From Polyangiaceae bacterium (lineage in GTDB: Bacteria; Myxococcota_A; Polyangia; Polyangiales; Polyangiaceae), in NCBI GenBank assembly GCA_029261965.1, contig JAJDAH010000437.1, positions 1 to 37,366 of the forward strand: 37,366 bases of DNA, given 5' to 3'. Of the stretch, positions 20,702 through 31,399 are shown one piece after another. Numbering within the stretch: the stretch's first letter is position 1; every line of letters starts with the position of its first letter. The position numbers and the translations under genes are program-made. The notes below the pieces were generated by a model. It saw nothing but the letters and a program-made list of their open reading frames with translations, was not told where the DNA came from and ran no database searches.

Positions 20702-22117
20702 CTAGACGCGCTCGGCGTGGGCGCGGAGTATCGACTCGAGCGAGCGGTCGACGTCGGATTCGTCGGTCGACCAATTGGAGACGGAGATCCGCATGAGGTC
20801 CATGCCGTGCCACGTCGTTGCACTCATGAAACACGTGCCCTCGCGCTGCACGCGGGTGACGACTCGTCGGGTGTGAGCGTCGTCGTCTCCACCGTCGCTG
20901 AAGCGGACTAGCACCTGGTTCAGCACGACATCGTTCACCACGCTCACGCCGGGGGCGTCGTTCAGTCGGTCAGCGAAGCGAGATGCCATTCTGCAACACC
21001 GATCGACGAGTTCCTCCACCCCCTGGCGACCTAATTCGCGAATGGCGGCGTAGACCGCAAACCCCCGCGCGCGGCGCGACAGCTCTGGCGTCCAGTCCAC
21101 CGGGTTGCGATAGCCCTCGTCCGCGCCCTCCGGGAGGTAGGCCGCGCGAATCGACATCGAGGCGCGGTGCGCTTCGGGATGCGCAGTGAACGCGATTCCG
21201 CAGTCGTATGGCGTGTTGAGCCATTTGTGCGCGTCGGTCGCCCAAGAGTCCGCGCGCTCAATCCCCCTGCTGAGTGCTCTCTTGTCCGCGCTGGCCTGTG
21301 CCCACAGGCCGAAGGCTCCATCGACGTGAAGCCAAGTTCCCGAGCGTTGGTCGCGGTGCCGGTCGACGACGTCACAGATCTCGCTCATGGGGTCGATGGC
21401 GCCCGTGTTCACGTTCCCCGCTTGGGCGCAAACGATCGTAGGGCCCCGGGTTTCTTCGAGGAGCTGGGCGAGCGCGCCCGCTCGCATGCGACCCTGCTCG
21501 TCGGTATCGACGGCGACCGTCGAACGAGTGCCGAGGCCGATGTGACGAATCGACTTGGCCACGGTGTCATGCTGCTCCTGGCTCACGAGAACCGAGATCT
21601 TCGGTGCGCCTTGGAGACCGTCGACCTCCACGTCCCAGTCGTGGGCGGCGAGCACCGCGTGGCGCGCGGCGGTAAGGCAGACCGTGTTGGCGACCTGAGC
21701 TCCCGTGACGAGCGCGCCGGAGCAATGAGCGGGAAGCCCGAGCAGCTCGGTCAACCACCTCAACGCGACTTGCTCGACCATCGACGCGGCAGGGGTCGGT
21801 TCGGCCATGCCGGTGTTTTGCTCCCACGCGACGGTGAGCCAGTCCGCTGCGAGGGCCGCGGGATGGGAGCCGCCGATCACCCAGCCGAAGAACCGTCCAC
21901 TGGGCATGGCGGCAAGTCCGGGATCCGCGCCTCGCGCGAGCTCCTCGACGACCTTTAGAGCGGACAACCCCGTCTCGGGTACTGGACCGTCGAACGCGGC
22001 GAGCATTTGCTCGGGCGTGGCCCGTGCTCGGATGGGTCGATCCGCCAGGCTTTCCAGGTATTCCCGGGCCAATCGGCTCGTGAGATCCAAAAGTGGCTTC
22101 CAGTCGGTCTTGATCAT
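20702..22117 (-). CDS. PLP-dependent group II (aromatic L-amino acid-type) decarboxylase
   Basis: The product is 471 residues from ATG 22117. It is a fold-type I PLP enzyme of the pyridoxal-dependent decarboxylase family (aromatic amino acid, glutamate or histidine decarboxylases). Key residues are His183 (stacks on the cofactor), Asp266 in Leu-His-Val-Asp-Gly-Ala-Phe-Gly, and the Schiff-base Lys298 in Asp-Ala-His-Lys-Trp-Leu-Asn. N-terminal landmarks include Pro-Ser-Gly-Arg-Phe-Phe-Gly-Trp-Val and Trp-Glu-Gln-Asn-Thr. It resembles bacterial relatives of tryptophan/tyrosine decarboxylases. The substrate cannot be read from the sequence. It is convergent with glutaminase and divergent from the carotenoid oxygenase. 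Confidence 0.87.
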   Translation of the reverse strand: MIKTDWKPLLDLTSRLAREYLESLADRPIRARATPEQMLAAFDGPVPETGLSALKVVEELARGADPGLAAMPSGRFFGWVIGGSHPAALAADWLTVAWEQNTGMAEPTPAASMVEQVALRWLTELLGLPAHCSGALVTGAQVANTVCLTAARHAVLAAHDWDVEVDGLQGAPKISVLVSQEQHDTVAKSIRHIGLGTRSTVAVDTDEQGRMRAGALAQLLEETRGPTIVCAQAGNVNTGAIDPMSEICDVVDRHRDQRSGTWLHVDGAFGLWAQASADKRALSRGIERADSWATDAHKWLNTPYDCGIAFTAHPEAHRASMSIRAAYLPEGADEGYRNPVDWTPELSRRARGFAVYAAIRELGRQGVEELVDRCCRMASRFADRLNDAPGVSVVNDVVLNQVLVRFSDGGDDDAHTRRVVTRVQREGTCFMSATTWHGMDLMRISVSNWSTDESDVDRSLESILRAHAERV

Positions 22118-22220
22118 GCGGCTGGAGGAGCCTAGGGCCCGTTTGCGGGCGCGGGAAGCTGCGGCGGCGCGTGGCGCATCGCGTCTTGTCGAAAAGATAC
22201 CTACAGCGTATCGATCGGGG

Positions 22221-23696
22221 ATGCGCTTTTCACGACGTGACGCCCTCAGGGTCGGCGGACTCGGACTCGCCGGACTTCTTCATCCATCGATGCTCGCGGG
22301 CTGTTCGAGCAGAAAGGATCCCGGCCCAACGGGCCCGGGGGATGGTCTGCCGCTCGACGAGCTACCGCCGCTCGACTCCGGCACGCCGTGGTGGCTACAA
22401 CAGAACTTCGCGCCCGTTCCGGAGCAAGAGGCGTTCGATCTCGAGGTCATCGGATCGATCCCGCCGGAGCTCGATGGACTCTACGTTCGCAACGGCTCGA
22501 ACCCGTCGGGAGTCGAGACTTTCCATTGGTTCGTCGGCGACGGAATGCTGCACGGGGTGCGCATCCAGAACGGCAAGGCGCTCTGGTATCGCAGCCGGTA
22601 CATCCAGACGCCGCTACTGAACAACAGCGACGGCAACCTGCCGGTCCCCACCCTGACGAGCCACAACGCCAACGTCAGTGTGTTCGAGCATGGAGGAAAG
22701 CTTCTGACGTCCGGGGAAATCGGCATCCCCTACGAGGTGAGCGCAGAAGATCTGAGCACGATCGGTGCGTACGACTACGGCGGCTTGCTCCAGACTGCGA
22801 TGACGGCGCACCCGAAGATCGACGCGGTCAACGGCGAAATGCTCATGTTCGGATACGGCTTTCTCGAGCCTCCGTTCCTGACCTATCACCGCATCGGCGC
22901 CGACGGCACGCTCGTGCAGAGCGAGGAGATCGACGTCCCGGCTGCGGCAATGATGCACAACTTCGAAGCGACGGCCACGAAGGTCGTCTTCTTCGATCTC
23001 CCGATCGTGTTCGACCTCGAGATGGCGGTGCAAGGCCGCTTCCCGTTTCGCTGGTCCGACGATCACGTGGCTCGCCTCGGCGTCATGCCGCGTGACGGCA
23101 CGAACGCGGACGTGCACTGGTTCGAGATCGATCCGACCTACATCTTTCACACGTTCAACGCCTACGACGACGGCGACAACGTCGTGATGGAGACCATCAG
23201 CCACGAGCGTCTGTGGGAGGATGGGCCGGAAAACTTCAATTCGAACGCCACGACGCGTCGCTATACGCTCGACGTTGCCAACGATCGAGTGACTCAGGAG
23301 GACATCGACGAGGACTTCATCGAGTTTCCTCAGATCGATCGACGTCTCGTTGGTCAGAAGCACCGCATCGGCTATTCGGTGCTGATTCAGCCGCCGACCC
23401 CCGAACGCGACGTGCTCGGGTTCCGGGGATTTCAGAAGTACGACCGGCAGACAGGCGTGACCGTTCCCCACGAGCTTCCGCTCGGGCTCGAGCCGAACGA
23501 GGCGTATTTTGCGCCGGCGGGTCCCGGCGAGGACGACGGCTACATCATGAGCTACGTCTACAACTACGCGACGGACAAGACGGCGCTCTGGATCCTGGAT
23601 GCGAAGGACTTCTCCAAAGAGCCAGTCGCGAAGATCCAGCTCCCGTTTCGAGTCCCTCACGGCTTTCACGGCACGTGGGTGCCGATGGGCGCCTGA
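22221..23696 (+). CDS. carotenoid oxygenase (RPE65/CCD family), Tat-type lipoprotein
   Basis: The product is 491 residues from ATG 22221. The upstream extension runs into the divergent decarboxylase gene and is rejected. Residues 3-28 read as a Tat lipoprotein signal: Phe-Ser-Arg-Arg-Asp-Ala, a hydrophobic core, then Met-Leu-Ala-Gly-Cys28. Residues 60-491 are a seven-bladed-propeller carotenoid oxygenase with all four iron-ligand histidines: His197 (Ala-His-Pro-Lys), His246 (Met-His-Asn-Phe), His310 (Phe-His-Thr-Phe-Asn) and His483 (Gly-Phe-His-Gly-Thr-Trp). The family uses Fe(II) and O2 to cleave conjugated double bonds of carotenoids, apocarotenoids or stilbenes. Export through Tat as a lipoprotein is unusual, since most relatives are cytoplasmic. 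Its last 49 codons are repeated at 28067-28215. Confidence 0.9.
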   Translation: MRFSRRDALRVGGLGLAGLLHPSMLAGCSSRKDPGPTGPGDGLPLDELPPLDSGTPWWLQQNFAPVPEQEAFDLEVIGSIPPELDGLYVRNGSNPSGVETFHWFVGDGMLHGVRIQNGKALWYRSRYIQTPLLNNSDGNLPVPTLTSHNANVSVFEHGGKLLTSGEIGIPYEVSAEDLSTIGAYDYGGLLQTAMTAHPKIDAVNGEMLMFGYGFLEPPFLTYHRIGADGTLVQSEEIDVPAAAMMHNFEATATKVVFFDLPIVFDLEMAVQGRFPFRWSDDHVARLGVMPRDGTNADVHWFEIDPTYIFHTFNAYDDGDNVVMETISHERLWEDGPENFNSNATTRRYTLDVANDRVTQEDIDEDFIEFPQIDRRLVGQKHRIGYSVLIQPPTPERDVLGFRGFQKYDRQTGVTVPHELPLGLEPNEAYFAPAGPGEDDGYIMSYVYNYATDKTALWILDAKDFSKEPVAKIQLPFRVPHGFHGTWVPMGA

Positions 23697-23788
23697 CCGG
23701 AGGTAGGGACCCAGCTGAAGGGATCGTCAGTCGAGCGGCGCCTGCAGCACCGGTGTCAAAATGTCGTCTTCGACCGAGCTTTGTTGCG
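23548..23788. repeat. 241-bp direct repeat, left copy
   Basis: This block is repeated at 28067-28307 in the same orientation with no gaps and six differences (five in the oxygenase coding part, one two bases beyond the hydrolase stop), all transitions. It contains the oxygenase gene's last 49 codons, the 30-bp spacer, and the last 62 bases of a serine hydrolase gene whose intact copy is at 28246-29577. Similarity stops abruptly at both ends. Confidence 0.95.
23727..23788 (-). pseudogene. 3' fragment of the serine hydrolase gene
   Basis: This minus-strand fragment encodes the last 19-20 residues of the hydrolase at 28246-29577, ending Thr-Pro-Val-Leu-Gln-Ala-Pro-Leu-Asp-stop, with no base differences from the intact gene. 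Beyond 23788 the hydrolase sequence is lost, apart from a short Ala-rich stretch that could be drifted homology. It shows that the hydrolase gene once abutted the carotenoid oxygenase gene. Confidence 0.85.
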
Positions 23789-23909
23789 CAGCTGCCGCGG
23801 CGAGCATTTGGGAGTTTCGGCAACGCTATTACACATCACGAAATTCCTCGCTTTTCGCCGGTCGCAAGCTCGCCGACACTGACGGGATCGGTCGTGTTCT
23901 GCTTGCGGG

Positions 23910-24338
23910 ATGACCACTCGTTCACGCCGCTCGTACGACCACCGCATCAAGAAGCAGGTCATCTTCCCCGGGAACCCCAACCTATTTCCCGAGCTCGAGA
24001 GCCCGCCCTCCACGGCACGGGGCTGGATTCGACAAGGCATGGGCGACGTGGTGGCCCTCGACGACGAGCAAGAGGTCGAGGCAGAGCTTCGGAATCGGAT
24101 CATCAAGCTGGAATACCGGGTCGAGATACTCACGGCAGTGCTCAGGCTCGTCCTCGCGCTGCTGCGCATCTCCGGATTCAAGCTCGAGCTCCTTCGATTG
24201 CCTGATGCGGCTTCCAAGCGAGTCATCCTCGGAGCCGTCGAGCGCGCCAGGAAATCCATGCCCTTGTCCTCTGCGCTCCGCGTTCTCCGACTCTCGTCAG
24301 CTCGCTACCACGCCTGGATCGACGGTCCGCCCCGCTGA
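23910..24338 (+). pseudogene. truncated transposase, N-terminal (helix-turn-helix) part
   Basis: A 142-codon frame from ATG 23910. It starts with a basic segment (Arg-Ser-Tyr-Asp-His-Arg-Ile-Lys), then a Pro/Ser-Thr-Ala-Arg-Gly-Trp-Ile-Arg helix-turn-helix, then a long helical stretch. It ends Leu-Arg-Leu-Ser-Ser-Ala-Arg-Tyr-His-Ala-Trp, which in my recollection is where proteins of this integrase/transposase group (two-domain, DDE core) pass into the catalytic part. No DDE core follows: the frame stops and a lipoprotein gene begins 122 bp later. It may be an OrfA-like first frame or, more likely, an element remnant. It sits inside the segment bounded by the 241-bp direct repeats. Confidence 0.55.
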
Positions 24339-24350
24339 AACCCGGGGATG

Positions 24351-24380
24351 CCCCCCAATGCTGGGGGTGCGCGTCCCCCC
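24351..24380. other. two mutually exclusive G/C hairpins
   Basis: A run of six C (24351-24356), a run of five G (24363-24367) and a run of six C (24375-24380) allow the central G-run to pair with either side, with loops of six or seven bases. It lies after the transposase remnant stop and 81 bp before the lipoprotein gene at 24461. It could be a transcription barrier at an element end or a simple structured leader. Confidence 0.35.
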
Positions 24381-24460
24381 GAACTTCGTGCGACACCGAA
24401 CAGACGCCACTGGGGCCGCTTGGCTTCCAAGGGCACTGCCAAATCAATCGGGAGATCAAT

Positions 24461-25642
24461 ATGTTGCTCAAGCGCCTCACTCGCGGACTTCTCGCTCTAT
24501 TGATCATCCCACTCTCATGTGGCGGCTCCAGCGGTGACGACTCCGACCCTGACCGCTCCACCGAAGACGTGATTGTCATCCTTCCCGATGGATCGACTGC
24601 AACGGTCGAGGTGGTGGACGCGAGTGACTATCCCGACCAGGATTCTCTGGCCTCTCCGGTATTCGACATCGGCCCCTCCGGAACGACATTCGATGTCCCC
24701 GTCACGATCGGACTGCCCATAGATGAGGGCACCCCGGATGGCCCCGTTGTGGTGGCGCGATACAACGAGACGACAGACGAGTGGGATCATCTTCCCGGCA
24801 GTTTCATTGTGGCCACAACGGTGTTTGCCAAGACGGATCACTTCAGCATCTTCGCTGCTCTTTCTGCCCCCCAGGCGGCTGCGTGTGACAACTTGTGGAC
24901 CAATGGAGGCCCCGGAACAGTGGCCCCCCTCCTCGTCCCTGGCACGATCACAGTCACTCCGGGCACCAAGACCGAAGAAGTCATTCAGTTTTCAGGTCCT
25001 TCGAGTTTCGCTGCGAGCTCGACCTGGACGAGCCCGGGATGCACCGTGACGGTCGAAGGACTGTTTGGACCCGGGCAAACCGGAGATGGGATGTTGATCG
25101 ACTATTCCAATGGTGGAACGACCTACGCGGTTCCTCAGGTGGCCGGTGGTGCCTTTTCGGTGACGCTGAATGCTCCCATTGGACCTTTCTTTGGACTCGC
25201 GGATCCATGTCATGCCGCGATCGGCGGAGTGCCCTACCTGCTCAACGTGCACATGACGGGAGACTGCGGACCCGTAAATCCACCTCCAACTCCCGTTCCC
25301 TGCGGGTCCGGCAACAATGGAAAGATGATCCAGGGACGCTGCATGGTCGAGGTCACGCTGCCACAGAGCGGGAACGATGCGTGTGCCGCGGAGGGCATGA
25401 CGTGCATTGATATCCCCGTGCTGTCCCCTCCCGAAGAAGCCTGTGTCGCCTTCAATCCCACGGCAAGCGTCACTTCAACCGGGAGTGGATGGCAAACCGG
25501 TTTCTACTGCGACGGCGCCGGTGGCTCTGCTTGCGCGGGCAAGACTAACAACTGTCATAGCTGCCCGCCGTGTACTTCAAACATCACGTGTGCGAGTACT
25601 GATCCGACAAACATCAATCGCATTTACGCGAGTTGCCAATAA
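24461..25642 (+). CDS. lipoprotein with ZU5-like beta region and Cys-rich C-terminus
   Basis: The product is 393 residues from ATG 24461 (GGGAGA lies 8 bases upstream). The signal peptide ends Pro-Leu-Ser-Cys20-Gly-Gly. Residues 60-135 read Asp-Ile-Gly-Pro-Ser-Gly-Thr-Thr-Phe...Val-Thr-Ile-Gly-Leu-Pro, then Tyr-Asn-Glu-Thr-Thr-Asp-Glu-Trp and Asp-His-Phe-Ser-Ile-Phe-Ala, a layout I associate with ZU5-like domains of bacterial surface proteins. The middle is Thr/Gly-rich beta sequence. The last 120 residues carry many Cys, including a Cys-His-Ser-Cys-Pro-Pro-Cys cluster. Third codon positions look less GC-rich than in neighbouring genes (many Ser/Asn/Gly codons end in T or A), which fits arrival by transfer. 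It lies within the direct-repeat-bounded segment. Function unknown. Confidence 0.75.
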   Translation: MLLKRLTRGLLALLIIPLSCGGSSGDDSDPDRSTEDVIVILPDGSTATVEVVDASDYPDQDSLASPVFDIGPSGTTFDVPVTIGLPIDEGTPDGPVVVARYNETTDEWDHLPGSFIVATTVFAKTDHFSIFAALSAPQAAACDNLWTNGGPGTVAPLLVPGTITVTPGTKTEEVIQFSGPSSFAASSTWTSPGCTVTVEGLFGPGQTGDGMLIDYSNGGTTYAVPQVAGGAFSVTLNAPIGPFFGLADPCHAAIGGVPYLLNVHMTGDCGPVNPPPTPVPCGSGNNGKMIQGRCMVEVTLPQSGNDACAAEGMTCIDIPVLSPPEEACVAFNPTASVTSTGSGWQTGFYCDGAGGSACAGKTNNCHSCPPCTSNITCASTDPTNINRIYASCQ

Positions 25643-25749
25643 ATATGTTGAGCGCCACGCTCGAGCTCGAAACCTCGAGATGACGGTTCTCGACTGCCAG
25701 CAGTGTTGTACCGCCCGACGGTCAGGCCAGCCGCACTACCGAGACGCAA

Positions 25750-27279
25750 TCAGCGCTTCGCCAGCTCGCGCGCGACGCGTTCCAACAGTGCGTCCGGAGT
25801 ATACGGCTTTGCCAACAGCTCGACGCCCTCGGTGAGGCGTCCGTCGCTGATCAAGAGGTCTTCGGTGAATCCAGACACGAACAGCACCGGCAGCCCCGGT
25901 CGCAGGGTGGTCAATCGCTCTGCCAACTCCGAGCCGTTCATGCCCGGCATCAGGACGTCGGTGACCAGAAGGTCCAGATGATTCGACTCGACGGCCAAGT
26001 CCAGCGCTTGTTCACCGTCGGGGGCGCTGATGACGTCGTAGCCAGCCTGCGAAAGGACCGCCGTACCAAGTCGTCGGAGCATCGAGTCGTCTTCGACGAA
26101 CAGAATCTTGGCGCTGGGCGCAGGGTCCTCGGTGCGACCTGCGGGTACGAGTCCTCGGGCGATCGGGCCATCCGAGAGCGGCAACCGGACCGTGAACGTC
26201 GTGCCCCGACCAACCTCGCTCTCGACCTGAATGTCACCGCCGTTCTGGCGGACGATCCCGTAAACGGTGGCTAGGCCTAGGCCGGTTCCCTCGGACTCTT
26301 TCTTGGTCGTGAAGAACGGCTCGAACACCCGGTCGACGTTTTCCGGTGAGATCCCTTCGCCGGTGTCGACGATGTTGAACTCGACGTAGCGACCCGCCGC
26401 CAAAACGGAAGTCGGAGTCGCTTCCACATCCGATAGAGTGGTGGTGACCGTGAGCTGCCCTCCGTTCGGCATGGCGTCGCGAGCGTTGATGAGCAGATTG
26501 ACGATGACCTGGGACAGCTGCCCGGGATCGGCCATCGTCGGCAACGGTGAGACTTCGACGCTGAGCGAAACGTCGATGTTCTCGCCGATGACCCGACGCA
26601 GCATCCGCGTTGCACCTTCAACTACTTCGTTGAGGTCGACGACTTGCGGTTGATGAACCTGGCGTCTCGCGAACGCGAGTAGTTGGTTGGTGAGGTCCGA
26701 CGCGCGCTGTATTGCGAGGCGGACTGCATCGAGACTCTCCCGAGCAACCACCGGCTCACCGAGGTGCCGATCCGCCAACGTCGTGTGGCCGAGCATTGCG
26801 GTGAGTAGATTGTTGAAGTCATGTGCGATACCGCCGGCGAGTCTGCCGATGGATTCGAGTTGCTGCGACTCTCGGAGCTCTTCTTCCAGTCGGACGCGTT
26901 CGGTGACGTCCCGAGCGATGACCACGATTCCGACGACTTGGCCGCTGTCGTCTTTCAGTGGAAACTTGTCGGTCTCCACCGAGCGTTGTTCGCCGTCCCC
27001 GGTCGCAATGGTCTCCACAATCCCGGTCTTGGGGCGCCCGGAGCGAATGACGGTGAGGTCGTCTTCGTAGTACTGAGCCGCCAAGTCTGGGAACCAGCGT
27101 TCCGATGGGGTGTTCGCCATCTCGGCCGGCTCCACCCCCAAGCTGTCGCTGACTGCCTTGTTGACGGCGAGGATCTGGTTCTTCGTGTCCTTGTAGAAGA
27201 CAAAGATGGGGATGTTGTCGAGGACGAGCCGATCGCCAGCCAGAAGCCTCTCGAGTTGTCCCTCGCCGTTGGTCACCAC
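25750..27279 (-). CDS. hybrid histidine kinase (PAS-HisKA-HATPase-REC)
   Basis: The product is 509 residues from GTG 27279, preceded by GGGAG six bases upstream. The open frame continues to 27921 but reads through gene debris without recognisable domains. Order: PAS domain 15-125 (ending Val-Val-Ile-Ala-Arg-Asp-Val-Thr-Glu-Arg), HisKA with phospho-accepting His153 in Gly-Gly-Ile-Ala-His-Asp-Phe-Asn-Asn, HATPase with N-box Asn-Leu-Leu-Ile-Asn-Ala-Arg-Asp-Ala (261-269), Asp-Thr-Gly-Glu-Gly (305-309) and Gly-Thr-Gly-Leu-Gly-Leu (331-336), and receiver domain 390-505 with phospho-acceptor Asp441 and Lys491. There is no membrane segment, so it senses a cytoplasmic signal through PAS. No output regulator gene is adjacent. 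It lies inside the repeat-bounded segment. Confidence 0.9.
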   Translation of the reverse strand: MVTNGEGQLERLLAGDRLVLDNIPIFVFYKDTKNQILAVNKAVSDSLGVEPAEMANTPSERWFPDLAAQYYEDDLTVIRSGRPKTGIVETIATGDGEQRSVETDKFPLKDDSGQVVGIVVIARDVTERVRLEEELRESQQLESIGRLAGGIAHDFNNLLTAMLGHTTLADRHLGEPVVARESLDAVRLAIQRASDLTNQLLAFARRQVHQPQVVDLNEVVEGATRMLRRVIGENIDVSLSVEVSPLPTMADPGQLSQVIVNLLINARDAMPNGGQLTVTTTLSDVEATPTSVLAAGRYVEFNIVDTGEGISPENVDRVFEPFFTTKKESEGTGLGLATVYGIVRQNGGDIQVESEVGRGTTFTVRLPLSDGPIARGLVPAGRTEDPAPSAKILFVEDDSMLRRLGTAVLSQAGYDVISAPDGEQALDLAVESNHLDLLVTDVLMPGMNGSELAERLTTLRPGLPVLFVSGFTEDLLISDGRLTEGVELLAKPYTPDALLERVARELAKR

Positions 27280-27431
27280 CAGAAACTCCCGTGAAACGAC
27301 CGAGTCGCCCAAAGAGCCAGCGCGCACGCTACGCTTGCGAACGCAGCCTACCCGAGTTCGAGGGTGCCGCGACGTCGCACGAGTTTGACAACTGGTTCTG
27401 CCTTGTTTCAGCAACCTGCGCGTTGCTTCGA

Positions 27432-27656
27432 TCACGCGCGGCGGACGAACTTTCCGATCTCGCCCATCGCTGCGCTCGCCTCGGGCACGGAAGGCGCGAA
27501 GGCGTGCCAGGCGTGGATCATGCCCTCGGCGACGAAGAGCGTGACGTCGACGCCTGGCAAGCGTGGCGTGCCGAGCACCGGGTCGTCCTCGGCTTTGCTC
27601 CGGATCGAGTCGCCGGCGTGAGCCAGCCTCTCCCACGCTCCGCTCGACATCCCGAG
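27432..27656 (-). pseudogene. alpha/beta hydrolase (HSL-type esterase) fragment with internal deletion
   Basis: The frame ends with Val-Thr-Leu-Phe-Val-Ala-Glu-Gly-Met-Ile-His-Ala-Trp-His, a Phe-Ala-Pro and Pro-Glu-Ala segment, and Ile-Gly-Lys-Phe-Val, which is the C-terminus of HSL-family esterases including the catalytic His. Just upstream, Trp-Glu-Arg-Leu-Ala...Gly-Asp-Ser...Asp-Pro-Val-Leu matches a segment normally about 60 residues earlier. The stretch with the catalytic Asp (Val-Gly-x-x-Glu-x-Leu-x-Asp) therefore seems deleted. The N-terminal half with the Gly-Asp-Ser-Ala-Gly nucleophile is absent. It is a decayed remnant. Confidence 0.55.
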
Positions 27657-27693
27657 GTGGTGCACGAAGCGACGAATCCAGCGTGGCCTTGCC

Positions 27694-27798
27694 AGCCCGA
27701 TCCTCGACGACTGGCGCGCGTTGTTCCAAGCCCTCACCGGCATCGACTTGCGCCGGTGCCCGTGTTGCGGCGCTCCTCTCGTCCCACGACCGTTGCCT
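27694..27798 (+). pseudogene. C-terminal fragment of an IS91-type transposase
   Basis: The plus-strand frame reads Ile-Leu-Asp-Asp-Trp-Arg-Ala-Leu, then Leu-Thr-Gly-Ile-Asp, then Arg-Cys-Pro-Cys-Cys-Gly-Ala-Pro-Leu, then Pro-Leu-Pro. This is the pattern at the C-terminus of many IS91/IS801-family (Y2 rolling-circle) transposases. Nothing of the catalytic part remains. IS91 elements can carry neighbouring DNA in one-ended events, so the fragment may be connected with how this segment was assembled. Confidence 0.5.
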
Positions 27799-28066
27799 CG
27801 TCGTCCACCACGCCATTGCCATGTCGACTCGCCATCCGGAGTGCTTCCGTGGACCATCGACATCGCCGATGGACCCTTGTCCCTTCGGGGTCGACGCACC
27901 GGTCTGCTCGTCTGCCGCCACCCCGGCGAGCCTTCGCGTCCACGCCTCGACTCCTCGCTACCTCGGACCGGATTTCTGTTTCCCGCACCGCACTCGGCAT
28001 TGGCGCAGGGGGCTGCCCTAGATTCGGAGGGGGCATTTTTCCAGCTTCGATTGCCCTTCGCGCCGC

Positions 28067-28215
28067 TGAGCTACGTCTACAACTACGCGACGGACAAGAC
28101 GGCGCTCTGGATCCTGGACGCGAAGGACTTCTCCAAAGAGCCGATCGCGAAGATCCAGCTCCCGTTCCGAGTCCCTCACGGCTTCCACGGCACGTGGGTG
28201 CCGATGGGCGCCTGA
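28067..28215 (+). pseudogene. 3' fragment of the carotenoid oxygenase gene
   Basis: This fragment encodes the last 48 residues of the oxygenase at 22221-23696, including the His483-equivalent motif Gly-Phe-His-Gly-Thr-Trp and the same TGA. Of the five differences, four changes at third positions are silent and one gives Val to Ile. Upstream of 28067 the similarity ends. The reading frame happens to be continuous with the IS91-type fragment, giving a chimeric frame from about 27673 to 28215, but I see no start or function for it. Confidence 0.85.
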
Positions 28216-28307
28216 CCGGAGGTAGGGACCCAGCTGAAGGGACCGTCAGTCGAGCGGCGCCTGCAGCACCGGTGTCAAAATGTCGTCTTCGACCGAGCTT
28301 TGTTGCG
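28067..28307. repeat. 241-bp direct repeat, right copy
   Basis: The right copy of the repeat at 23548-23788 (235 of 241 bases identical, no gaps, offset 4519). It joins the debris region on the left to the intact serine hydrolase gene on the right. Differences from the left copy fall at 28119, 28143, 28144, 28167, 28185 and 28243. Confidence 0.95.
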
Positions 28308-29577
28308 AGGCGAGCAGCGCGCCGATGTCGAAGGACGACAATGGGTCCGGGCCGAAGCGCACGACGATGAGGTCGTCGTCGGGGAACATGGCGACCAGCT
28401 GGTTTCCGAACCCGCGAGCGGCGAAATGGTTCGTTGGCGCGTAGGTGACGAGCTGTCCTCCGTCGATGGGTGACATCAGGGCGCCGATCGCTGGCGGTCC
28501 CGGCTCGTTGACCCACCAGAGGTAGCCGTAGGCGCGGTTGAGCGGCGTTTGCGGGCTGATCGACTCCTGCACGTATTGAGCGGGCACGACCTGTTGCCCG
28601 GCCCAATTGCCCCCGTGCAGGTACAGGTAGCCGAATTTCGCGTGGTCGCGACACGAGGCCATGACCGATGCGTAGGCCGTCGCGTTACCCGAAGCATCTT
28701 TTGCCCAAAACGCGTCGATGCCCACTTTCGACCAGAGGTGCTGGGCCGCGTACTGCTCGATGGTCATGCCCGTCGCTGCTCGGAAAATCGGCTCGAACAG
28801 CTGAACGGCGCCGTTGTTGTACGTCCACTCTGCTCCCGGGGGGGCAATCGCGGAACGCTTGAGTGCCTCCACGGTTTGGTCGGCCGCGAGGGTGAGCGAC
28901 AAGTAGTCCTTGAGCAAATCCCAATCGAGCCCCGAGTCCATTCGGAGCAAGTGGCCGATGGTGATGGCGGCCCGCTCGGTCCCTTGCCACGCGGGGATGA
29001 AGTCGGCGACGCTCTGGCCGAGGCCGAGGATCTCGCCGCGCTCGATGGCGATGCCGACCAGAGCGCTCGTGTAGCTCTTCGCGATGGACCACGAGCGCTG
29101 CGGGGTCGTCGCGTCGTGGCCGCGCCAGTAGGTTTCGCTAACCAGCTTGCCGTGGCGAATGACGAGCAGGCAGTAGGAGCTTCCTGCGTCGGCGGCGGCT
29201 ACGGCTCGTTCGATGAGCGTCGGGTCGAGGCCAACCTCTGCCGGCGTGCCGACCTCCCAATTGGGAGAGGGGAAAAGGGTCCCGGATCCGGGACCGGCAG
29301 GCGGAGCGCCGCCGCTGCCGGGATCGGCAGGGGGAGCGCCGGCCGCGCCCGGGTCGGTCGGGGAGTCGATGGGCGGCGCTCCTGCGGAGCCGCCCGAGCC
29401 GCTTGGCGACGGAGCCGCACCGGGGTCGCTCGGCCCTGGCATGGGCGAGCCGGATGGGGCGCACATCGTTCCGCACGGCTCGGAGTCGTCGCGCGGGGTT
29501 TCAGCATCGGCGCCGCACGCGGCGAAAAACCAGGATGCCGCGACAAGTGCCCAACCGCTGGTTCTCGAAATGGTCAT
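28246..29577 (-). CDS. serine hydrolase, class C beta-lactamase-like lipoprotein
   Basis: The product is 443 residues from ATG 29577. The lipoprotein signal ends Phe-Ala-Ala-Cys21. Residues 36-100 are a Pro/Gly/Ser-rich linker. Residues 105-430 are the beta-lactamase/transpeptidase-like fold (PF00144): Ser164-Ile-Ala-Lys167 (nucleophile and base), Tyr252-Asn-Asn254, and a His-Phe-Ala-Ala-Arg-Gly-Phe-Gly block replacing the Lys-Thr-Gly triad late in the protein. Family members hydrolyse amides or esters (D-amino peptides, esters, rarely beta-lactams). The enzyme is anchored to a membrane facing the periplasm or outside. Its 3' end is duplicated 4.5 kb away, and the gene formerly abutted the carotenoid oxygenase gene. 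Confidence 0.88.
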   Translation of the reverse strand: MTISRTSGWALVAASWFFAACGADAETPRDDSEPCGTMCAPSGSPMPGPSDPGAAPSPSGSGGSAGAPPIDSPTDPGAAGAPPADPGSGGAPPAGPGSGTLFPSPNWEVGTPAEVGLDPTLIERAVAAADAGSSYCLLVIRHGKLVSETYWRGHDATTPQRSWSIAKSYTSALVGIAIERGEILGLGQSVADFIPAWQGTERAAITIGHLLRMDSGLDWDLLKDYLSLTLAADQTVEALKRSAIAPPGAEWTYNNGAVQLFEPIFRAATGMTIEQYAAQHLWSKVGIDAFWAKDASGNATAYASVMASCRDHAKFGYLYLHGGNWAGQQVVPAQYVQESISPQTPLNRAYGYLWWVNEPGPPAIGALMSPIDGGQLVTYAPTNHFAARGFGNQLVAMFPDDDLIVVRFGPDPLSSFDIGALLASQQSSVEDDILTPVLQAPLD

Positions 29578-29692
29578 CGGCTCACCCGTCGGAAAGGGCC
29601 ACGAGTGTGGCCCATTGACCCTACGGGGTACGGGCAGCGGTAAGGTTGAGGATCGGTTGATGACTCGCTGATCTGTGCCCGCTCGCGGGGGC

Positions 29693-31399
29693 TCAGCGAC
29701 CCTCGCGCAGGCTGTCTCGGTCCCTTTGGATCTCCGCGCGCTGCTCGCTCGTGCCGACGAGCCCGCGGTCCATGGCTTCGAGGGCGTCGTCGTAGTGTCG
29801 CGCGGCTTGCTCGTACGCCAGGCGGGCTTCAGCGTGTCTTGCCGCTCGAAGGCTGAAGTCGACGGCTTGCTCCGCAGCGCCGGATCCGGCGGCCCTCATG
29901 AAGTGGTGGGCAATCACGCCCAGCATTTCCGGGTCGTCGGTCGCCCGCTGGGAGAGGATCTCGGCGGCGGCGCGATGCCATTCGGCTCGGTGCTTGGCGG
30001 TGAGCGCCTCATAGAGCGTCTCTCGCACCAGCGCGTGGGCGAGCTCGAACCGCTCGGGCCGGGCTTCGCGGATCCACCCTTCTCGAACCGACCGATCCAA
30101 ATGTTCGAGGGCGTCGTCCACCGGGGTTTCGGTCAGTCGCGCCGCGAGGGCGGGGGTGAACTGGTCGCTCAGGACTGACACGGCGTCGAGCAGGTTGCGA
30201 CACTGCTCCGGCAGGCTCTCGAGACGGTGTTCGATCGCGTCTCGGACTCCAGCGGGGATCGGGATCCGCCCACCGTCGAGGTCGGGCCCTGGCAAGCGAC
30301 GCAAGACCTCGTCGACGAAAAAGGGGTTGCCCTCGGTCATGGCGTGCACTTGCTGCACCAGCTCGCTCTTGGCGGCCTGGCCCCACACGCGTTGCATCAA
30401 TTCGGCGACGTCATCCGTGCCGAGTCCTCCGAGCGAAATACGGCGAACCGCTGGGTTCCGTGCGAGCTCTTTGACGGTGCGAGCGAGTCGTTCGGGCATG
30501 GCGAGGTCGCGGTACGCGCCGATGATCAACAAGCGCGACGAGTCGATGTTTTGGGAAAGAAACTCGAGCACGCGAAGCGATGCCTCGTCCGCCCAATGCA
30601 AGTCGTCCAGGGTCAGAACGATCGTGCGAACCTTCCCCGACCGTCGGAGGAATCGAGCGACTTCGTCGAAAAGGCGGAACCGTCGTCGCTCGGGGCTCGG
30701 CGCTTGTTGGCCGCTGACTTCGGGCAGGCTCTGCGCGGTGCCGGCGACCCAGAGGGTGTGCTCGTGCGACAGATTCGGAGGTTCGCGGCGCTTCGCCAGC
30801 GTTCGGAAAATCTGCGTCCAAGGCCAGTAGGCGGGGGCGCCCTCGCCTTCGAAGCACCGGCCGCCGAGGACTGCGGCGCCGCGGGCCCCGGCTGCGCGGG
30901 TGAGCTCGCTGAGAATGCGGGTCTTGCCGATGCCAGCTTGGCCGCCAAGCAAGGCGATGGTGCCCCGACCGGCGTCGGCGTCGTCGAACGCGCCGAGCAG
31001 CTCGCTCATGACATCGCTCCGTCCGACGAGCCCGTCCGCAGGGGGCTGGGCCGCGACCGTGGAAGCGGCGCGGGGCTGGGCCGTTGCTCCACGCACTTCG
31101 GCCACGAACCGGTAGCCGCGCCCGCGAAGGGTTTGAACGAAACTTTGCTCGCTTGGGGTGTCACCGAGCAGCTTTCGCGCCTCTTTGATGCAGCGTGGAA
31201 GAGCCGTGGCGCTCACGGCGCCGCCCCATAGCTTGTCGATGAGCTCTTGCTGCGGGACGACGCGGTCCCGGTTCGTCACGAGGTGCGCGAGCACGTCGAA
31301 CACTCGAGGTTCCATCGCGATCTTGCTTCCGCTCTTTCGAAGCTCGAACAGCGTGGTGTCGAGCTCGAACTCGCCGAAGATGTAGATCGCGTCGCTCAT
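29693..31399 (-). CDS. winged-helix/AAA ATPase transcriptional regulator
   Basis: The product is 568 residues from ATG 31399 (the frame start at 31453 is rejected, as homology starts at Tyr-Ile-Phe-Gly-Glu-Phe-Glu-Leu-Asp). Residues 5-100 are an OmpR/CadC-type winged helix (Arg-Val-Phe-Asp-Val-Leu, Leu-Ile-Asp-Lys-Leu-Trp, Gly-Arg-Gly-Tyr-Arg-Phe). Residues 120-400 are a STAND-like AAA domain with Walker A Gly-Gly-Gln-Ala-Gly-Ile-Gly-Lys-Thr (152-160) and Walker B Leu-Thr-Leu-Asp-Asp-Leu-His-Trp-Ala-Asp. The C-terminus reaches only the first TPR-like helices (Ala-Tyr-Glu-Gln-Ala-Ala-Arg-His-Tyr), whereas most such regulators are 900 residues or more, so it is short for the family. The signal and targets are unknown. 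It lies upstream of the serine hydrolase gene in the same direction, with a 115-bp gap. Confidence 0.85.
   Translation of the reverse strand: MSDAIYIFGEFELDTTLFELRKSGSKIAMEPRVFDVLAHLVTNRDRVVPQQELIDKLWGGAVSATALPRCIKEARKLLGDTPSEQSFVQTLRGRGYRFVAEVRGATAQPRAASTVAAQPPADGLVGRSDVMSELLGAFDDADAGRGTIALLGGQAGIGKTRILSELTRAAGARGAAVLGGRCFEGEGAPAYWPWTQIFRTLAKRREPPNLSHEHTLWVAGTAQSLPEVSGQQAPSPERRRFRLFDEVARFLRRSGKVRTIVLTLDDLHWADEASLRVLEFLSQNIDSSRLLIIGAYRDLAMPERLARTVKELARNPAVRRISLGGLGTDDVAELMQRVWGQAAKSELVQQVHAMTEGNPFFVDEVLRRLPGPDLDGGRIPIPAGVRDAIEHRLESLPEQCRNLLDAVSVLSDQFTPALAARLTETPVDDALEHLDRSVREGWIREARPERFELAHALVRETLYEALTAKHRAEWHRAAAEILSQRATDDPEMLGVIAHHFMRAAGSGAAEQAVDFSLRAARHAEARLAYEQAARHYDDALEAMDRGLVGTSEQRAEIQRDRDSLREGR

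Follow-up and report, generated by a model that had tools for sequence, protein, structure and literature searches.

The window, which is the whole 37,366-nt stretch analysed here, makes up the entire contig C376 of a 9.59-Mb genome assembled in 480 contigs (96.4% complete, 3.5% contamination). A complete carotenoid oxygenase gene and a complete serine hydrolase gene lie on either side of a 4278-bp insert (Table 1). The insert is flanked by a direct repeat of 241 nt (98% identity, spacing 4519), the sole direct-repeat family detected in a search of positions 22000–30000; a whole-genome search found it at these two places and returned no third copy. The oxygenase gene runs to its end within copy 1, which closes with a stump of the hydrolase 3′ end; copy 2 opens with an oxygenase stump and supplies the true end of the hydrolase gene. 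Because each copy joins the 3′ end of one gene to the 3′ end of the other, the two genes abutted, tail to tail, before the insert came. The first-pass annotation had described a 4.3-kb segment between 241-bp direct repeats, had named both genes and had concluded that they were once adjacent. The segment and its repeats lie as described, both names hold against the protein family models, and the former adjacency is visible directly in both copies. In a non-random sample of 820,121 bases of the genome (64 sequences, the window among them, partly picked for element ends and with C308 partly counted twice), no more than three same-strand repeats reached 100 bp and 90% identity, and the 241-bp repeat is the longest of them. 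We take the insert structure with its flanking repeats to be real with high probability, and parts of known kinds account for it.

Table 1. Features of the insert and the adjoining genes, in window coordinates
Positions	Strand	Feature	Basis
22221–23696	+	Complete carotenoid oxygenase gene (RPE65 family); its 3′ end lies within repeat copy 1	PF03055, E 1.4e-113; start chosen by inspection
23548–23788	+	Direct repeat copy 1: oxygenase 3′ end, spacer, hydrolase 3′ stump	Repeat search, alignment of the copies
23789–24317	+	5′ part of a putative IS3-like element, which has its left terminus (CAGCTG) at 23789, breaks off near 24317 and includes most of ORF 23910–24338	Homologous copies in C218, C55, C462 and C12; three-way alignment; C218 against C308
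24461–25642	+	Carried gene for a putative lipoprotein, 393 aa	ORF; 'lipoprotein' read from the N-terminus
25750–27339	−	Carried gene for a hybrid PAS sensor histidine kinase with receiver domain; start approximate	PAS_4, HisKA, HATPase_c, Response_reg
27432–27700	−	3′ fragment of a probable alpha/beta hydrolase gene	82% DNA match of 27432–27554 to C63; name read from the translation, family match absent
27700–27875	+	Fragment, possibly the C-terminus of an IS91/ISCR-like transposase, with a CPCCG motif	Translation; weak 75% DNA match to C104; family match absent
27875–28066	+	Origin end (oriIS-like) of a multi-copy ISCR/IS91-like element; terminus adjoins copy 2	16 places in the genome with differing flanks and near-invariant terminal bases; PF04986 transposases nearby
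28067–28307	+	Direct repeat copy 2: oxygenase 3′ stump, spacer, true hydrolase 3′ end	Repeat search, alignment of the copies
28246–29577	−	Serine hydrolase (beta-lactamase-fold) gene, complete	PF00144, E 2e-29

The gene set between the element ends looks like carried DNA. The lipoprotein has one long relative outside its own genome among the 144 genomes searched, at 47–48%, in a member of another family of the order (G044). Matches occur in 131 plasmid records, none of which reaches 80% coverage; the matches in the 20 listed are confined to kinase-like stretches. The fragment next to the origin end may carry the C-terminus of an IS91/ISCR-like transposase. It is unlike the C-terminus found in copies with the same terminal sequence, so there may be shuffling of ends and transposase genes within this family.

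The right border of the insert is formed by a sequence that recurs at 16 places in the genome, the window included, many of them at contig ends. Beyond the shared end, the fetched copies run on into unlike DNA. The last ∼28 bases are nearly invariant among 14 aligned copies (all but those in C94 and C300), leaving 1–3 uncertain bases at the very end, and repeat copy 2 begins with the base that directly follows this terminus. In C465 and C433 the conserved end lies downstream of a transposase gene. Transposases of the PF04986 type stand beside it in these two contigs and in C41, and one is also present in C300 (eight places counted). Those of C465 and C300 score above the PF04986 cut-off (Y2_Tnp family; E 8.5e-24 and 4.1e-23). 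The best model for the C465, C433 and C300 proteins is NCBI ISCR clade Ia, at E 6.5e-39 and 133.8 bits against a cut-off of 925, and the IS91 model gives 54.9 against a cut-off of 125. As both scores fall under the respective cut-offs, we term the element ISCR/IS91-like only. None of the six ends tested for folding folded clearly better than shuffled sequences (z from −0.06 to 0.93), and no shared target tetranucleotide was seen across the flanks of the origin ends. Seven contigs (C94, C225, C385, C351, C463, C219 and C220) start or stop within the ISCR/IS91-like end, and the element seems to be a main cause of breaks in the assembly.

The left border belongs to a different element. All or part of positions 23829–24317 recurs at 72–76% in C218, C55 and C462, with shorter matches in C12. 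When the window, C218 and C55 are aligned, the sequence is common from the CAGCTG motif onwards and unlike before it. C218 and C308 are in turn ∼95% identical over 421 bp up to the base preceding CAGCTG and then diverge. Alignments that depart at this one motif place the terminus of the second element at the first base of the insert. Its relationship appears weakly IS3-like: the IS3 transposase model matches at E 6e-5 and 22.5 bits, far under its cut-off of 160, and the longer copy in C218 matches IS481 only, at 0.0074. The pair formed by C308 (L056; 759–1179) and C218 (L058; 7849–8269) lies beside element ends in both contigs and comprises a small gene and, by reading, a nucleotidyltransferase-like gene. 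We used this pair only to place the left terminus and rejected it as a further repeat case, its match starting 203 bp from the origin end and its genes being paralogous. As judged from the alignments, both borders of the insert are transposon termini, and they derive from two unrelated element families. Since the left terminus comes from an unrelated element, the insert as a whole is not one element of either family.

The two copies of the repeat diverge by 2.5%. All six differences are transitions (23600/28119, 23624/28143, 23625/28144, 23648/28167, 23666/28185 and 23724/28243). Five of them fall in the oxygenase part, where four are silent and the translations differ by a single Val/Ile exchange, exactly as first reported. 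The chance of at least four silent changes in five is P 0.039 if only transitions are considered and 0.010 for all changes. At the exchanged site, 64 of 98 homologues have Val and 15 have Ile, which is the second commonest residue there. At the four silent sites copy 2 reads GAC, CCG, TTC and TTC, and copy 1 reads GAT, CCA, TTT and TTT; judged by the codon usage of 12 window genes, copy 2 has the commoner codon every time. Commoner codons would not be expected in a decaying stump such as copy 2. Together, the silent bias and the codon choice of copy 2, where decay should be seen, appear to favour descent from two living alleles, on the small numbers of five changes, two of them adjacent, with no outgroup allele to hand. 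The earlier proposal that the copies diverged under selection is thus supported by the probabilities, the acceptable Ile and the codon choice, and tempered by how few changes carry it.

An oxygenase relative is present in 29 of 59 genomes, our own counted, a set that holds no same-genus genome besides it, and the best foreign match is 51%. A scan of named genomes, with the best 80 of 392 kept, again reached 51% at best. No close allele was found in the 59 genomes or among these 80. The origin end was matched in 4 of 144 genomes, namely its own and three with weak matches of 30–45 bases.

Fifteen of the 16 origin ends have a flank past the terminus, and 260 nt from each of the 14 outside the window were searched against the genome itself. 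One gave an accepted second copy. Nucleotides 1–235 of the flank in C472 (L043; 3408–3642), counted from the origin end, recur at 99% identity (two differences) at positions 1–235 of C338 (L191). The C338 copy starts at the same point as the C472 flank and ends contig C338. C472 contains a whole gene ending 48 bp before its origin end, and C338 contains a stump of the same gene. The pair may be another instance of this architecture; alternatively, since the match stops at a contig end, C338 might be an allele without the element. For 12 of the 14 flanks no near-identical copy starting at nucleotide 1 was present, which indicates that duplications are not the rule for the ISCR/IS91-like family and speaks against a built-in target duplication. 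Several other candidates were dropped. A 139-bp direct repeat in C300 (L055; 884–1022 and 3490–3628; 98.6%) starts at flank nucleotide 35 and is multi-copy, occurring also in C182 and C439; by reading, it is a putative IS3-type end. The C351 flank matches C478 at 98% over nucleotides 1–47, beside a transposase that we take to be of the IS256 type. The flank matches of C433, C220, C225 and C465 (78–87%) are weaker and were taken as paralogues.

The repeats, the borders, the mixed contents and the element family are seen in the sequence; the integration route we consider probable, and we infer a circle, a donor and an order of events as follows. The donor, as this route requires, would be the chromosome of a close relative in which an IS3-like element already occupied the position of 23788, with captured genes and an ISCR/IS91-like origin end behind it. 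From that origin end, rolling-circle replication would proceed leftwards and, the terminator being missing, would copy the captured genes, the IS3-like end and another 241 bp before stopping within the oxygenase gene. Circularisation of this product would bring the origin end up against the oxygenase sequence that corresponds to 23548. By one crossover within the 241 bp, this circle would enter an intact oxygenase–hydrolase locus, leaving both genes whole with a repeat on each side. The same steps, namely replication from the origin end past a missing terminator, a circle, homologous recombination and duplication of neighbouring DNA, make up the ISCR1 model, proposed for the duplicated 3′-CS of complex class 1 integrons in parts of two reports (PMC13023784; PMC6834847). 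Applied here, the model predicts exactly the arrangement observed: oxygenase with copy 1, then the left element end, the cargo and the origin end, and finally copy 2 with the hydrolase.

Our tentative preference, at a probability a little short of even, is that a circle produced in this way by one-ended rolling-circle transposition brought in 241 bp of this locus in a slightly divergent allelic form, and that it entered through a single crossover between homologous sequences. It is preferred because copy 2 directly adjoins the conserved origin end of a family with 16 places in the genome. The carried genes and fragments form a chain, as one-ended transposition would give. Further support comes from the repetition of the C472 flank at the end of C338, from family transposases that match PF04986 and score best, below its cut-off, with the ISCR clade Ia model, and from the silent bias and commoner codons that point to two living alleles. 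Against it counts the insert itself, in which neither a full transposase nor a terminator was recognised. The 12 of 14 flanks lacking a near-identical copy from nucleotide 1, the contig end at which C338 stops, the origin ends with neither a folding signal nor a common tetranucleotide and the small number of changes weigh in the same direction, and no donor, circle or empty site was seen. The first-pass annotation had likewise proposed single-crossover integration of DNA bearing a related allele; that reading stands as the preferred one, and what it missed are the transposon termini at the borders, which supply both a vehicle and rival routes.

The same order could arise if two separate insertions, an IS3-like element at 23788 and, in another chromosome, an ISCR-like origin end at 23548, were joined by a crossover in homologous stretches within the inserts. 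Borders that are termini of different families agree with this scheme, which accounts equally well for two alleles and needs no circle. It requires, however, insertions 241 bp apart in two chromosomes and a common sequence inside them; none of these was seen, and the IS3-like part breaks off at 24317 without sign of the required homology. We regard this route as unlikely. A local tandem duplication of the gene ends, followed by the landing of elements and trimming by deletions, would suit the fragmentary contents, but the ends of the duplication would have to coincide with two element termini, and we give it very little credence. An assembly chimera of strains deserves thought for a metagenome-type assembly with this many contigs, this level of contamination and many contig ends at element copies. 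Contigs have 141-base ends in common, so assembly used overlaps of that size. The longest identical run between the two repeat copies is 64 bases and that between the window element end and other fetched contigs at most 75, both shorter than 141, so the structure is not on its face an assembly collapse. The junctions moreover coincide with biological termini found in other contigs, and a chimera is very unlikely.

It had also been argued that the repeats are far too long for a transposition target duplication. That is too strong a statement, since the long, variable direct repeats beside insertions of IS1549 and IS1634 are given as 8 to 514 bp in part of PMC2266710. Nicks far apart, filled in, could have left a 241-bp duplication that later acquired six changes, and the repeat does begin at the origin end in two cases, of 241 and at least 235 bp. 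IS1549 and IS1634 are, however, DDE-type elements, for 12 of the 14 flanks outside the window no near-identical copy from nucleotide 1 was found, the left border belongs to another element, and the changes look selected. A unit with ends from two families is a transposon of neither, and plain insertion with target duplication is accordingly not our first choice; we judge it distinctly improbable. More doubtful still is the idea that insertion by the rolling-circle (HUH) elements of this lineage in itself duplicates ∼240 bp of target (241 bp in the window and 235 bp or more at C472/C338), which would let them land in gene ends without breaking genes; we know of no such duplication for IS91 or ISCR.

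If the circle and single crossover are correct, the locus would be a chromosomal, non-clinical case of a step in the spread of ISCR1, in which a rolling-circle product with host DNA is rescued by homologous recombination. Such cases would move genes without breaking the target. They would be recognisable by a direct repeat that sets in at the origin end, a scar that could be searched for in any genome with such elements.

Long direct repeats beside an insertion recall IS1634 and IS1549, but those elements are IS4-family-related and none was found at these borders. The likeness to ISCR/IS91 (HUH) elements is closer in that copies in the genome encode PF04986 transposases, with an HFH or HLH motif as read, and have the conserved end downstream of the gene. 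The copy in the window differs in having at most a C-terminal transposase fragment; scores fall below the model cut-offs, there is no hairpin signal and a terminator end was not found. In complex class 1 integrons with ISCR1, as described in parts of PMC13023784 and PMC6834847, carried genes and an ISCR end likewise lie between two direct copies of a host segment. Here the genes are of chromosomal type from a Polyangia-like bacterium rather than an integron, the repeated segment is 241 bp of an ordinary gene junction, the transposase is at most a possible fragment, the copies differ by 2.5% and no resistance gene was recognised. What the locus has in common with rescue of an ISCR circle is a direct repeat of host DNA whose second copy starts at the origin end.
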